From: a virus
IMG/VR virus record: IMGVR_UViG_3300005563_000035
Span: 1 to 64,000 of that record
Length of the DNA stretch: 64,000 nucleotides
Reading direction: 5' to 3' (one strand)
Position 1 is the stretch's first letter, and the number at the start of each line of letters is the position of its first letter. A program made the position numbers and the translations under genes. The notes below the pieces were generated by a model. That model saw only the letters and a program-made list of their open reading frames with translations. It was not told the DNA's origin and searched no databases. Positions 4,403 to 63,251 of this stretch are shown here, one piece after another.

Positions 4403-4777
4403 ATGGCCGTCGCATCAACGTCCATCGAAACGTACCACGACCTCAAGGCCGATGGCACGCTCGGCAAGCGCCAGGCGCAGGTCATGGCGGCGGTGCAGCC
4501 GGGGGTGGACTACAGCCTCCAGGAACTCGTGCGAATCACGGGGCTGCCGGTGAATTGCATCACGGGCCGAGTCGCGGAATGCCGCGATATGGGGTTGCTT
4601 GAGAACGCGTCGCCACGCCCGTGCAAAGTGACTGGCCGAACCGTCAGACCGGTCCGCCGGCCCGCAATCGACCTCGACGCCATCAAGGCGGCCGGGCTGA
4701 ACTCCGAGGCTGAATCACAGCGGCTGCTGGCGGCGCATCGCCGCCATGAGGCGGGGGAATTGCTCGGTGATGCCTGA
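4403..4777 (+). CDS. Winged-helix hypothetical protein (124 aa)
   Basis: ATG chosen at 4403 because GGAGGGG precedes it. The segment YSLQELVRITGLPVNCITGRVAECRDMGLLE is a winged-helix core in which the last helix would lie in the major groove. It overlaps the replication gene that follows. A DNA-binding role in replication control is inferred from fold and place. Confidence 0.5.
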   Translation: MAVASTSIETYHDLKADGTLGKRQAQVMAAVQPGVDYSLQELVRITGLPVNCITGRVAECRDMGLLENASPRPCKVTGRTVRPVRRPAIDLDAIKAAGLNSEAESQRLLAAHRRHEAGELLGDA

Positions 4778-33805: not shown

Positions 33806-35308
33806 ATGACGAAGTCCATCCCCGCCAGCTATTTCGTGTCGATCGTCCCGGGCGTCATCAGCGCCGGGGGCTCGGCACTCGACCTCAACGGCCTGATGCT
33901 GACCAATGGCACCCGAACGCCCATCGGCTCGGTGCTGTCGTTCGCTTCGGCCGCTGCCGTGGCGACGTACTACGGCGCCAGCAGCACGGAGGCGACGGCG
34001 GCTGCGGTCTACTTCGCCGGCTTCGACAACTCCAACGTCAAGCCTGGCGCGCTGCTGGTGGCGCAGTACAACACGGCCAACGTTGCCGCCTACCTGCGCG
34101 GCGCCTCGGTTTCTTCGCTGACGCTGGCCCAGCTGCAGGCCCTGACCGGCACGCTGATCATCACGACCGATGGCACCCAGAAGACCTCGGGCACGATCAC
34201 CCTATCTGGCGCGACCAGCTTCTCGAACGCCGCCACGATCATCCAGGCCGCGTTCACGACGCCGAACTTCACCGTCTCGTATGACAGCGTCTCGGGCGCC
34301 TTCGTGTTCACGAGCAACACCACTGGCGCGAGCTCGACCATCACGTACTGCACGGGCACGCTGGCTGACGCCCTGAACCTGCGTCTTGCTGATGGCGCGG
34401 TCACTTCGCAAGGCGCCGTCACCGCTGTGCCGGGCACGTTCATGACGGCCATCACCGGCATCACCCAGGACTGGGCCTCGTTCTTCACGTCCTTCGACCC
34501 GGACAACGGCTCTGGCAACACCCTGAAGCTGGCCTTTGCGAACTGGAACAACACCCAAGGCAACCGCTACGCCTACATCGCCTGGGACACGGACGCCAGC
34601 CCCACGACGACCGTGCCGGCCACGACCTCGCTGGGCTACCTGCTGTCGCAGTCGAGCGTGTCGGGCACCAGCCTGATCTACGCCCCCGCGCTCGACAAGG
34701 CGGCGTACCAGTCGGGCGCCATCGCCTCGGTGGACTTCAGCGAGAAGAACGGCAGCACGAACTTCGCCTATCGGATGCAGTCGGGCCTGACCCCGGATGT
34801 CACCGACCTGACGACGCTGACCAACCTGATCGCCAATGGCTACAACGCCTACAGCGCGGTCGCCACGGCCAACCAGAACTTCCAGTACATGTACCCGGGC
34901 AGCGTGTCCGGCCAATACCTGTGGCTGCAGGACTACGTCAACCAGATCTGGCTGAACAACGCCCTGCAACTGTCGCTGATGGAACTCCTGACCTCGGTCA
35001 AGAGCATCCCGTACAACGCGGCCGGCTACGCGCTGATCCGTGCGGCCTGCATGGACCCGATCAACGCCGCCGTCAACTTCGGCGCGATCCAGCCGGGCGT
35101 GACGCTGTCGGCCCTGCAGATCGCCGAGGTTAACAACGCGGCCGGCGTGAAGATCGACAAGACCCTCTCGGCGCAGGGCTGGTACCTCCAAGTGCTCGAT
35201 GCCACCGCGCAAGTCCGCGGTCAGCGCAAATCGCCGCCCATTTCGCTCTGGTACACCAGCGGGGGCTCCGTCAACCAGATCAACCTGGCTTCCATCGAAG
35301 TCGCCTGA
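33806..35308 (+). CDS. Tail sheath protein (DUF3383)
   Basis: A 500-residue protein. DUF3383 features: N-terminal FVSIVPGVISAGGSALDLNGL, VATYYGASSTEATAAAVYFAGFDNS, FTSFDP..GNTLKLAFANWNN, and the C-terminal WYLQVLDATAQVRGQRKSPPI. It forms the contractile outer sheath and proves myovirus morphology. The ATG follows a CGGAGCGTCC leader. Confidence 0.9.
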   Translation: MTKSIPASYFVSIVPGVISAGGSALDLNGLMLTNGTRTPIGSVLSFASAAAVATYYGASSTEATAAAVYFAGFDNSNVKPGALLVAQYNTANVAAYLRGASVSSLTLAQLQALTGTLIITTDGTQKTSGTITLSGATSFSNAATIIQAAFTTPNFTVSYDSVSGAFVFTSNTTGASSTITYCTGTLADALNLRLADGAVTSQGAVTAVPGTFMTAITGITQDWASFFTSFDPDNGSGNTLKLAFANWNNTQGNRYAYIAWDTDASPTTTVPATTSLGYLLSQSSVSGTSLIYAPALDKAAYQSGAIASVDFSEKNGSTNFAYRMQSGLTPDVTDLTTLTNLIANGYNAYSAVATANQNFQYMYPGSVSGQYLWLQDYVNQIWLNNALQLSLMELLTSVKSIPYNAAGYALIRAACMDPINAAVNFGAIQPGVTLSALQIAEVNNAAGVKIDKTLSAQGWYLQVLDATAQVRGQRKSPPISLWYTSGGSVNQINLASIEVA

Positions 35309-52737: not shown

Positions 52738-53730
52738 CTACTTGGCTGGCTTCGCCCGCTTGGCGAACTTGCCTTCGACGTAGTCGCGGGTCATGGCCTC
52801 GGTGCTGTGACCGAGCAGCTTTTGAGCCGCTCCGATGTCCTCGTCGTCGCCCATCGCGTCAACGCCGGCCCGGCCGCGGAGATCGTGGATATTCAGGTCT
52901 TCGATGCCCGCCCTCGCCGCAGCGCGCACCCAGGCCGAGCGGATGCCCGAATACCGGTAGCCGCGCCCGCTCTGTGTCTTCAGAAGGTGACCGATCTTGT
53001 CGCGGCCGGCGGCGCATGCCTCGACGGCGGCCCGGAGTTCGGGCGACCACTCAATCAGGAGTCGCACTCGGCCTTGCGACTTCTTCTGCGTCACGTAGAT
53101 CCCGCGCGCGTCGTCCACGTCCTGCCAACGCATCTTGATGACGTCGCTGATGCGCTGGCCGGTCAGCATCGCCAAGTCGATCATCTGCACCAGTGCCTCA
53201 CCGTTGCGGGACTGCTGCAGCGCCGCGGCGCGCATGGCCTTGATCTCATCGTCCGTGACGATGCGGATGCGCCGCGACAGCTTCATCGGCGGGATGTTGT
53301 CGACTGGGTTGAAGCCCTCGCGAAGACCCTCGATGGCGGCAAACGCCAGCACGCCGCGGAGCATGGTGCGGTGCAGGTTGTGGGTGCGCGGCTTGTCGCG
53401 GTACTTGCGCAGGTAGGCCGCAGCGACGGGAGTCGTCACCTGGCTCGGCTGAAACTCAACCATGGCCGCAGCCATCTTCCCCGCGATTCGCTCCTGGTCG
53501 GCGGCCTGCTTCGTGCTCCAGTCATCGCGCTTTTGGTCGACCCAGCGCGTTATCACGGCTGGCATCATGTCGCCGCGGACTTCGGTGTCCATGACGCGCG
53601 CCAACGCCCGCAGCATCGCCGGGATACCGTCGTTCTCGCGCGACAAGCCGATCCACTTACCGGCCGGCGTCACGTAGTAGTAGCGCCCATGCTTGACATA
53701 GACGCGCTTCGGAAGCTCGGTGCGGGTCAT
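52738..53730 (-). CDS. int: Tyrosine recombinase (phage integrase)
   Basis: A 330-residue protein. Catalytic set by my count: Arg193 (LTGQRISDVI), His282 and Arg285 (IHDLRGRAG), His308 (LLGHST), Tyr317 (TRDYVEG). An N-terminal arm-binding/core-binding domain precedes. It integrates at the adjacent tRNA-Arg and excises with an excisionase, perhaps the DUF4224 protein whose gene overlaps its start. Confidence 0.93.
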   Translation of the reverse strand: MTRTELPKRVYVKHGRYYYVTPAGKWIGLSRENDGIPAMLRALARVMDTEVRGDMMPAVITRWVDQKRDDWSTKQAADQERIAGKMAAAMVEFQPSQVTTPVAAAYLRKYRDKPRTHNLHRTMLRGVLAFAAIEGLREGFNPVDNIPPMKLSRRIRIVTDDEIKAMRAAALQQSRNGEALVQMIDLAMLTGQRISDVIKMRWQDVDDARGIYVTQKKSQGRVRLLIEWSPELRAAVEACAAGRDKIGHLLKTQSGRGYRYSGIRSAWVRAAARAGIEDLNIHDLRGRAGVDAMGDDEDIGAAQKLLGHSTEAMTRDYVEGKFAKRAKPAK

Positions 53731-60436: not shown

Positions 60437-60624
60437 GCAAAAAGTTCCTGCTGTGCCGGCAGTTGCGCGGCGGGGATGTCGAACCACTCGATCTCGGCGG
60501 GCCACGGCTGGCGGTCGACCGGCATGGCGATGAACGAGCCCTTACGGCAAGCCTCGACATGGAGCCAGTACCAGGCGGCGGACCAGCCATCAATGGCGCG
60601 CTGAGTGAAGATCGGCGGCATCAT
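60433..60624 (-). CDS. Small protein coupled to DGR reverse transcriptase (63 aa)
   Basis: ATG 60,624 overlaps the reverse-transcriptase stop (ATGA). Aromatic-rich (FTQRAIDGWSAAWYWLHVEA, MPVDRQPWPAEIEWFDIP). It could be co-translated with the retroelement, but sequence gives no DGR-related function. Confidence 0.5.
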   Translation of the reverse strand: MMPPIFTQRAIDGWSAAWYWLHVEACRKGSFIAMPVDRQPWPAEIEWFDIPAAQLPAQQELFA

Positions 60625-61982
60625 TGGTTTGCCGCCTTGCGATAGACCTTGGTGCAATCGGCATTGACCGTGAACCCGCGCTTGCGAGCTACGTTGGCCA
60701 GGCGCGATCGCAGCGCATGGCTGGCCGGCGACTGACGCATCAGGCCGAAATAGCTGTTGATGGCGGCTGGGTAGTCCACGTCCGCGGTTGCCTCCAGGCG
60801 ACGCAACGCATTGGGCAGCGCATTGGTGCGCGGCACGCGTCGCCACGGCTTGATGACGTGGCCCACGAAGTCGACGCCACGGTCTACCGGCTGCAGGACG
60901 GTCTTGCGCACATTCAGGCGCGCGCCGAGCCGAGCAGGCAAGAACTCGGCAATTCGGCCCAGCCATTCGACCAGCGCGGCGCTTGACTCATGCAACAACA
61001 CGAAGTCATCGACGTAGCGCACGTATCGCGGCGCCCGCAGCCGGTGCTTGACGAATTGGTCGAGCGCGTCGAGGTGAACGTTGGCGAAGAACTGTGACGA
61101 CAGATTGCCGATCGGCAGGCCCGTGTCCGCCGGCGCGTTGAACAGGCTCTTGTGTGGTGGCACCAGGCGCATGACCGCCGGCGGCGAGCGCACCTCGACG
61201 TCCTCGCGCGGATCATGGAACAAGATCGTCTCGGCCAGCACCTGCCACCATTCGCCATCAATGCGCGGCACGAGCTGCTCGCATAACACGCGCTTGTCGA
61301 TGGCCACGAAGAAGTTGGCCAGGTCACACTTCAGGTAGAACGCGGGCAGACTCCAGTTGCGCGTGACGCCGCGCGCTTGGTGCTCAAGGCGACGTGCCGC
61401 GTACAGTGTGCCGCGGCCGGGAATGCACGCGCAACTGTCTGCCACGAACGAGGCGTAGAAGCGGGGCGAGATCTGGTTGTAGAGGAGGTGGTGCACCACC
61501 CGATCGCGGAAGCCGGCCGCCCAGATCTCGCGTGGCTTTGGACGCCGCGCGACGAAGCACGTCGATCGCCCAGGCCGGTAGGCGCCTGAGACCAGATCCT
61601 CGTGCAGGTCGCACAGCTCTCGCTCTAGGTGGGCCTCGAATGCGAGGGCGCTCGCGCTGTTGCGCTTCGTGCGCCGGCAGTCCAGGTAGGCCCGGACCAG
61701 GGAGGAGAACAGGTTTGGATCTGCGGACGGCCCGAGCGCAGTTCTTGTTGTTGACGTTGTTCCAGTCCTGGTTGCCGTTGTTGAAGTTCTGCATCCAGGC
61801 GTTCGAGCCAGAGTCGCGCTATCGACGTCGCCAAGCCGAAGGCTGTCGCCGATCAGCCCGGAAACTGCACCGGACAGAGCTGGACGCGCCAGCCGGTTCC
61901 CGAGTGTGTGCGTGGCGGTGGCCTCGTGAGCCAGCGGCGCGACCAGATTCATGCGCACGGGCATGAGAGCCTTGACTGTCAT
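60621..61982 (-). CDS. DGR reverse transcriptase
   Basis: 453 residues from ATG 61,982, which overlaps the avd stop (ATGA). The enzyme core starts near residue 90 (NLFSSLVRAYLDCRR). Motifs: PKPREI, FYLKCDLANFF (first Asp), IGNLSSQ (~301-307; the SQ form is diagnostic for DGR enzymes) and RYVDDFVLL (~322-330, catalytic YVDD). It copies the template RNA with errors at adenine. Residues ~58-88 overlap the template repeat; no ATG, GTG or TTG lies between it and the core, so the N-terminus may be partly untranslated or the true start unusual. Confidence 0.93.
   Translation of the reverse strand: MTVKALMPVRMNLVAPLAHEATATHTLGNRLARPALSGAVSGLIGDSLRLGDVDSATLARTPGCRTSTTATRTGTTSTTRTALGPSADPNLFSSLVRAYLDCRRTKRNSASALAFEAHLERELCDLHEDLVSGAYRPGRSTCFVARRPKPREIWAAGFRDRVVHHLLYNQISPRFYASFVADSCACIPGRGTLYAARRLEHQARGVTRNWSLPAFYLKCDLANFFVAIDKRVLCEQLVPRIDGEWWQVLAETILFHDPREDVEVRSPPAVMRLVPPHKSLFNAPADTGLPIGNLSSQFFANVHLDALDQFVKHRLRAPRYVRYVDDFVLLHESSAALVEWLGRIAEFLPARLGARLNVRKTVLQPVDRGVDFVGHVIKPWRRVPRTNALPNALRRLEATADVDYPAAINSYFGLMRQSPASHALRSRLANVARKRGFTVNADCTKVYRKAANQ
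61722..61809 (-). repeat. DGR template repeat (TR)
   Basis: 88 bases related to two variable repeats. In the target-equivalent frame it reads AWMQNFNNGNQDWNNVNN, full of AAC codons at the variable positions. It differs from VR1 at 16 sites, all A on the coding strand, and from VR2 at 12 sites, 11 of them A. The 3' (left) 19 bases TGCGGACGGCCCGAGCGCA are invariant and form the initiation (IMH-like) segment. Confidence 0.93.
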
Positions 61983-62344
61983 GCTGCAGGCGCCCCGTTC
62001 GCTGCGGACTTGAGCCACCCACCACCTTGCTTGCCGATGCTGTCCAGGAGCTGCACCGCGTCCGCCCACACCTTCGTGGCCACGTAGCGGTTGTCGTGGC
62101 TCACGCGCAGCAGCACGGTCAGCGTGCGCTGGTGGGACAGCAGGTTCTCGACGTGGCGCGCCCGCTCTCCGCGCTTGGTCGCGTTGGCGAGCGCCATCTC
62201 GTCGAGCATGTCGATGCAGTGCTGGCTGATCTTCTCGCCCAGGCTACGCTTGACGCCTCGCGGCATCTGTTCCTGCGCGCGCACGGCCAGCGTCAGCAGC
62301 TGGGTACCCGTGCGGTAGATCGGCAAGTCATGGTGGAGGGCCAT
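61979..62344 (-). CDS. avd: Accessory variability determinant (Avd)
   Basis: A 121-residue protein of canonical bAvd size. A four-helix bundle is evident: LPIYRTGTQLLTLAVRAQEQMPRGVKRSLGEKI, then LDEMALANATKRGERARHVENL, TVLLRVSHDNRYVATKVWADAVQLLDSIGKQ. Basic faces bind template RNA and the reverse transcriptase as a pentamer. It lies between target 1 and TR in the BPP-1-like order. GAGGAAC precedes the ATG. Confidence 0.9.
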   Translation of the reverse strand: MALHHDLPIYRTGTQLLTLAVRAQEQMPRGVKRSLGEKISQHCIDMLDEMALANATKRGERARHVENLLSHQRTLTVLLRVSHDNRYVATKVWADAVQLLDSIGKQGGGWLKSAANGAPAA

Positions 62345-62372
62345 GGCTCAGTTCCTCAAAAGGATTGAAGGA

Positions 62373-62822
62373 TCAAGCGGAAACTCTGCGGACGGCCCGA
62401 GCGCAGCCCTCGTAGCCGACGCCGTCCCAGCCCTGGTAGCCGTAGTCGAAGCCCTGCATCCAGGCGTCCGAGCCGTTCTCGTGCGCTTCGCTCGACCAGT
62501 AGTAGCGCGCCTGGAAGCCGTCCTTGGCGTTGGCGAACAGCAGCGACTGCTCGCGCCGCGTCGGCAGCTCGCCGCCGGCCTTGGCCGCCCACGTCTTGGC
62601 GGCGGCCCAGTTCGCCTCGGTTTCGCCGGGCAGGAGCACCAGGTGGTGCGCCGGCGTTCCGTCGTCGTTCAGGATCAGGCCGGCGTAGGTCTCGCCTTCG
62701 GCCAGCGAGATCGATGCCGCGGCCACGGTGATGACGCGTGGCCGCGCGCGTTCGAAGGCGGCGATCTTCTCGGCCAGGCGCACCTGGTCGGACTTGAGAT
62801 CCTCGAGGGTGATCGTGGTCAT
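62373..62822 (-). CDS. DGR target protein 1 (C-type-lectin-like)
   Basis: A 149-residue protein. An N-terminal helix (LKSDQVRLAEKIAAFERA), then a DUF1566/CLec-like domain: WAAAKTWAAKAGGELPTR, LLFANAKDGF, YYWSSEAHENGSDAWMQ. It ends in the variable part GFDYGYQGWDGVGYEG and CARAVRRVSA. The variable residues are Gly/Asp/Tyr-rich, typical of a binding face. No signal peptide; possibly virion-borne or cytosolic. GAAGGAG precedes the ATG. Confidence 0.9.
   Translation of the reverse strand: MTTITLEDLKSDQVRLAEKIAAFERARPRVITVAAASISLAEGETYAGLILNDDGTPAHHLVLLPGETEANWAAAKTWAAKAGGELPTRREQSLLFANAKDGFQARYYWSSEAHENGSDAWMQGFDYGYQGWDGVGYEGCARAVRRVSA
62387..62474 (-). repeat. DGR variable repeat 1 (VR1)
   Basis: 88 bases at the 3' end of target 1. 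Sixteen differences from TR, every one at a template adenine (coding strand). The last 19 bases match TR exactly. Encodes the variable lectin loops. Confidence 0.93.
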
Positions 62823-62846
62823 GATGCGTTGGCTCCTTCGAAAGGA

Positions 62847-63251
62847 TCAAAGGACCAAAGGAATCATGCGGACGGCCCGAGCGCAGTTCTTGAAGTTGAC
62901 GTAGTCCCAGTACTGGTCGCCGTAGTGGAAGAACTGCATCCAGGCGCCCGAGCCGATGTAGGCCTCGGACGTCCAGTGCCAGTCCTTCTCGAACTGGTCC
63001 TTCGCGTTGGCGAAGAGCATGGCCGCGGCCGGGCGCGCCGGCAGCTCGCCGTCGACGCTCTCGGCCCACTTCTTCGCGTCGGCCCAGTTCAGATCCTTGC
63101 CGGGCTTGTCGGCCAGCAGCACGACAGCGACATGCACGCCGCTGGGCAGCGTCAGGATGCCTTGGAACGTGCCGCCCTCGAGCGGCGAACCCAGCGCCAG
63201 TGCGGCAACGGCCGCGAGCGCGAGGGGCTTGATTTCGGTCTTGGTGGTCAT
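62847..63251 (-). CDS. DGR target protein 2 (C-type-lectin-like)
   Basis: A 134-residue protein related to target 1 in its lectin part (NWADAKKWAESVDGELPAR, MLFANAKDQF, HWTSEAYIGSGAWMQ) and ending FFHYGDQYWDYVNFKNCARAVRMIPLVL-like with its own variable residues (F, H, Y, D, Y, Y, F). N-terminus KPLALAAVAALALGSPLEGG is hydrophobic and could act as a signal peptide. First gene of the DGR block in transcription order. Confidence 0.88.
   Translation of the reverse strand: MTTKTEIKPLALAAVAALALGSPLEGGTFQGILTLPSGVHVAVVLLADKPGKDLNWADAKKWAESVDGELPARPAAAMLFANAKDQFEKDWHWTSEAYIGSGAWMQFFHYGDQYWDYVNFKNCARAVRMIPLVL
62867..62954 (-). repeat. DGR variable repeat 2 (VR2)
   Basis: 88 bases at the 3' end of target 2. 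Twelve differences from TR: eleven at template adenines plus one G-to-T (coding strand, base 62,912) that turns GAC into TAC. The shared 19-base end is intact. Confidence 0.92.

Follow-up and report, generated by a model that had tools for sequence, protein, structure and literature searches.

Diversity-generating retroelements (DGRs) are targeted hypermutation systems of prokaryotes, in which the positioning of cDNA synthesis and the recognition of the target are understood mainly from Bordetella phage BPP-1. In this phage a structured RNA (RF03022) lies 3' of the template repeat (TR), and the VR is followed by a GC hairpin with a 4-nt loop (PMC3240598), without the octamer array described below. 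DGRs with several targets, lectin targets and targets of the Lcl/DUF1566 type are already known (PMC6642488, PMC10743442, PMC4159848), and Burkholderia phage Magia (NC_070954) has been published with a DGR (PMC7883833).

The DNA analysed here (the window) comprises 64,000 nucleotides (positions 1-64,000 of the 70,367-base virus record IMGVR_UViG_3300005563_000035), and its open reading frames (ORFs) and repeats delimit a DGR cassette at 60621-63251 on the minus strand. All parts of the cassette lie on this strand, in the 5' to 3' order target gene 1, target gene 2, avd, RT-15 RNA, TR and reverse transcriptase (RT). Target 1 (134 aa, 62847..63251), an ORF homologous to target 2 and to relatives, encodes a Lcl/DUF1566-like C-type lectin domain and carries VR1 (62867..62954, 86% identity to the TR); target 2 (149 aa, 62373..62822), for which the ORF, an AlphaFold model and a PDB match are available, combines an N-terminal helix with a C-type lectin fold and carries VR2 (62387..62474, 82% identity to the TR). 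These genes are followed by avd (121 aa, 61979..62344; Pfam bAvd PF22296, 2e-10, 41.6 bits against a cut-off of 40), by the structured RNA RT-15 (61807..61995; Rfam RF03018, 161 bits, E 8e-40), by the TR (61722..61809), delimited by the repeat family and by mismatches that fall on its adenines, and by the conserved RT domain (RVT_1, 60621..61712), whose ORF is open back to 62069, with a putative start at the TR or upstream of it. The cassette makes up a complete DGR, in which a single template is combined with two lectin-like targets in tandem, and its carrier is a temperate phage with a contractile tail. A sequence-only reading of this DNA had proposed as much, and every part that it named was recovered at its position; what it had overlooked were the RT-15 RNA between avd and the TR, the octamer array that follows each VR on its 3' side, and the fact that the RT start is uncertain.

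The TR, VR1 and VR2 constitute one 88-base repeat family, the TR having 27 adenines and 61 other bases. In fixed-window counts VR1 departs from the TR at 11 of the 27 adenines and at 1 of the 61 other positions (Fisher p 4e-6), and VR2 at 16/27 and 0/61, respectively (Fisher p 9e-11); the sole non-adenine difference inside the repeat is a TR G that reads T in VR1 (position 62912). No third VR was found in the whole 70,367-base record. Relatives were identified by an RT query in 343 viral stretches and 103 genome stretches, of which the 80 best in each class were used, and the scanned loci numbered 165 (80 viral, 80 genome, four named phages and the window). Across these loci (164 relatives and the window) mismatches occurred at 4448/10444 adenines and at 52/24212 other positions; since the scoring of the scan favours adenine mismatches, the fixed-window counts, which are free of this bias, provide the cleaner test. 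A concentration of differences at template adenines, on which the sequence-only reading had staked its case, is thus found in the window and in its relatives. Furthermore, two prophage contigs from one IMG genome series (L070 and L076), whose RTs are 99.1% identical and whose 100-base VR flanks are identical, differ in their VRs at 19/32 and 13/33 adenines and at 0/69 and 0/72 positions elsewhere. As a third contig (L101) combines the VR states of the two, independent updating of the two VRs is not claimed.

Two VRs were detected at 107 of the loci, three at 40 and four at one, i.e. at least two at 148/165. An RT tree of 46 rows unites the lineage in a single supported group, together with the long-branched outgroup row L177, whose placement is unsure. 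Although the DGR is real, the novelty implied by the sequence-only reading was too high, because DGRs with two targets are frequent in this lineage, one of them (Magia, PMC7883833) being published. Among the relatives, the phage records OK094664.1 and OP650936.1 agree in length (47,902) and in match identity, one of them being deposited as a phage of Shewanella and the other of Tenericutes; one of the two host assignments may be wrong.

The RT ORF contains the YVDD and IGNLSSQ motifs that had been read from the letters (the latter as PIGNLSSQ), its catalytic motif is intact, and RVT_1 and bAvd, the profiles by which the earlier claim could be checked, both score over their cut-offs; the closest solved chain is the bRT of BPP-1 (8ub7, 7.5e-30). 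The gap between the TR and the RT domain amounts to some 9-20 bases, with no structured spacer RNA of the BPP-1 type between them. Of 137 distinct loci, 73 (including the window) have no in-frame ATG, GTG or TTG in the interval from the TR 3' end to the RT domain, and the register of the RT frame is kept to the TR end in 113/114 loci. An ATG overlapping the avd stop is present in 36 loci (the window among them), and in 35/36 its frame runs without a stop across RT-15 and the TR into the RT, the other two frames having stops in 36 and 30; as these loci were picked partly for an open frame, it is the contrast with the other frames that counts, and not the 35/36 alone. These observations suggest that translation of the RT begins at the TR or upstream of it, and the TR may double as RT coding sequence. 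Coding selection is weak in the RT-15 part of the RT frame (synonymous share 0.36 vs 0.28 and 0.26 in the other frames), the synonymous share in the RT domain being 0.79. In the window, the RT frame is open from the ATG overlapping the avd stop across RT-15 and the TR (61982-60621).

RT-15 was found 5' of the TR in the window and in 7/7 lineage members scanned, whereas the structured RNAs of BPP-1 (RF03022) and BalMu-1 lie 3' of it. A segment of RT-15 (TGAATCTG in the window, 61944..61951) is complementary to the TR 3' junction (CAGATCCA, 61716..61723), the two arms of the proposed helix having been delimited by covariation over relatives, with the 3' arm exactly at the TR 3' boundary. In the window 7/8 positions pair, with one A-C mismatch. 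At the third variable pair, the one that varies most, 76 distinct sequence pairs comprise GC (55), TA (10), AT (6) and CG (2), so that 73/76 are paired vs 48.9 expected. The covariation score of the helix (63 of the 76 rows) is 0.178 vs 0.077 (sd 0.010) after shuffling, a value reached in 0/500 shuffles, and falls to 0.013-0.100 when the helix is slid. Mapped on an RT tree, the pair states need 11 changes in all, and compensatory changes therefore arose several times, on several branches. The constant core (ATCTGG/CCGCAGA) is partly fixed by the selection of rows and is not counted as evidence for the helix. Thirteen loci have no anchors, two of which (L135 and L137) read AATCCGG with CGGATT, also complementary. 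When the best helix between RT-15 and the TR end was sought in general, its strength did not exceed that of shuffles (mean z 0.3); what recurred in this search was one short helix at one position, and this helix was then tested by covariation. The MFE fold of RT-15 with the TR does not surpass shuffles in stability (z -0.7), for which reason the structural claim is based on the covariation.

Directly 3' of the VRs we identified an array of 8-base units (consensus MTTYRRTC), which in the window reads CTTTGGTC CTTTGATC CTTTCGAA behind VR1 (62837..62860, minus strand; array match and family signal) and GCTTGATC CTTCAATC CTTTTGAG behind VR2 (62355..62378, minus strand; array match). Self-identity in 175 non-redundant VR flanks reaches 0.435 at lag 8 and 0.364 at lag 16 (shuffles about 0.26), with no peak of this kind in the TR flank. 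In 4.87 Mb, both strands counted, a strict octamer pattern, present at 179/343 VRs, matches 180 times at a distance of at most 40 bases from a VR end and 4 times at other places; its matches in the window number two, one behind each VR (0.00 in shuffles), a count that is not an independent test, since the pattern was derived from the data in which it was counted. Within 90 nt after either VR of the window, no GC hairpin with a 4-nt loop was found (longest stem 4), and such a hairpin follows VR2 in many Pseudomonas relatives. A targeted literature search found no papers on such octamer arrays. A function of the octamers as a three-frame stop cassette was dropped by inspection (with no formal count), because the middle octamer is mostly CTTCAATC, which is without a stop; nor are they a universal feature of DGRs, as they were not found in the BPP-1 group. 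Weaker repeats of 7-8 nt with an ATCTG core occur in some VP58.5- and Lagaffe-type elements, and L171, L172, L273 and others have weaker ATCTG-core repeats between VR and hairpin, with a possible relation to the octamers.

Both VRs lie at the C-terminus of a protein of the C-type lectin fold. The AlphaFold model of target 2 (pLDDT 96) consists of an N-terminal helix and a C-type lectin domain and has the C-terminal domain of Legionella Lcl (8q4e) as its best PDB match. The earlier claim that both targets end in C-type-lectin-like domains is borne out. Of 38 aligned members, 30 match the Lcl_C profile with E values up to 0.01; the match of the window itself falls short of the cut-off. A signal peptide on target 1, judged by eye only, was rejected, its hydrophobic stretch aligning with one common to homologues. 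The additional remote VRs of Magia, Pseudomonas phage Cruim01 and L016 are found in similar small lectin genes.

The phage setting is that of a temperate contractile-tailed virus, as had been read: a tail sheath gene (phrog_205, 33806-35308) is present, and a tyrosine integrase is encoded on the minus strand at 52738-53730. The genes on the plus strand include those for the major head protein, terminase, sheath, tape measure, baseplate and tail fibres (43-47 kb), and an exonuclease and an ERF-type annealing protein lie upstream of the cassette on its own strand. The cassette sits in the early/integration arm, more than 13 kb from the fibres and on the strand opposite to the tail genes, which agrees with the integrase-side position assigned to it by the sequence-only reading. 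Among 53 virus records with the cassette, an integrase was detected in 47, a sheath gene (by one of two models) in 17, a TipJ-type gene in 25 (three of these also with sheath) and a P22-type portal in one, i.e. the cassette co-occurs with markers of contractile, long non-contractile and short tails. A cassette that travels among three tail types is unlikely to have tail-specific fibres as targets. This strengthens the earlier suggestion that the targets may be something other than tail fibres.

Taken together, we consider it highly probable that the cassette is a DGR of the working type, in which one template serves two recipients and two small lectins are re-randomised. By analogy with BPP-1, Avd and the RT would reverse-transcribe the TR RNA, inserting random bases opposite its adenines; the resulting cDNA would replace VR1 or VR2 and thereby re-randomise the ligand-binding face of two small C-type-lectin proteins. 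The complete set of parts, a VR divergence confined to adenines (with one exception) and the adenine-only divergence of the prophage pair argue for this reading. Its opposite, a decayed DGR that has lost its activity, could draw on the G to T difference in VR1 and on the lack of a standard RT start codon beside the TR in the window; it is very improbable, given that the RT motifs are intact, the frames open and both VRs adenine-diverged, and that the missing start codon is common to 73 of the 137 distinct loci. Within the working element, the 5' RT-15 RNA would hold the TR 3' end by a helix and substitute for the 3' spacer of BPP-1, and the octamer arrays would act as a target-recognition tag instead of the BPP-1 hairpin; both roles are drawn from comparison, and the RT-15/TR complementarity with its compensatory changes, as well as arrays that mark the VR 3' ends, are consistent with them. 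Alternatively, both elements may function outside retrohoming, the arrays in translation coupling or termination and the helix as a regulatory fold of the avd-RT mRNA. We regard this as rather unlikely: in the window the arrays do extend across the stop codon of the target and lie shortly before the start of the next gene, and RT-15 does overlap the avd-RT mRNA, but arrays follow VRs ahead of different next genes (remote VRs included) and are absent after the TR, and the helix arm falls exactly on the TR boundary.

As regards the targets, they are probably not tail fibres, and we infer that the lectins may be early or lysogeny-arm accessory proteins. They could also be receptor-binding proteins of the virion, like Mtd of BPP-1, encoded away from the tail genes, with the DGR switching phage tropism, an explanation to which we would give less than an even chance by a clear margin. 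In its favour, binding is a typical role of C-type lectin folds, the DGR targets of viral clades 1, 4 and 6 were for the most part annotated as tail proteins (PMC8144416), and the other DGR phages examined mostly have the target inside the tail/structural module. Against it stand the company of one cassette type with sheath, TipJ and P22-portal markers, the small stand-alone domains in the integrase/recombination arm (opposite strand, distant from the fibres) and the placement of the relatives' remote VRs in small lectin genes as well. Should the lectins be no part of the tail, the functions of phage DGRs would extend beyond host switching.

On a more general level, we put forward tentatively, at somewhat below even confidence, that in a DGR lineage of proteobacterial temperate phages the mechanism has been altered at both ends (pairing of a 5' RNA with the TR 3' end vs a 3' spacer, an octamer tag vs a hairpin), and that the sets of small lectins which this lineage diversifies have their role outside the tail, e.g. 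in the lysogen or against competing phages. The RNA helix and the octamer array represent two specific candidate cis elements in a widespread lineage, and an octamer tag could help to find unlinked targets.

Compared with the described systems, the window shares with BPP-1 avd, TR, RT (BPP-1 being the nearest solved one), a C-terminal CLec VR and adenine mutagenesis, but BPP-1 has a single target, a tail protein encoded inside the tail region. The gut phages nd4/nd12 (tentaclins, PMC10743442) likewise have one TR, two CLec targets of one cassette and a sheath gene; their two targets do not, however, resemble each other (in one, the VR domain is N-terminal and Ig domains are present), whereas those of the window are two small homologous stand-alone lectins. 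Magia has the same RT lineage (63% identity to the window RT), avd and small lectin-fold targets, in a cassette near the integrase of a contractile-tailed temperate phage, and differs by a third, remote VR. Its paper names genes 47 and 57 as targets and makes no mention of RT-15, the helix or the octamers (PMC7883833); our scan adds gene 46, which contains a VR (L166, 12163-12627) and is probably a DGR target not named in the genome announcement. Judged by comparison, the RT-15/TR helix, the octamer arrays, the common absence of an RT start behind the TR, and the occurrence of the cassette independently of tail type appear to be new.
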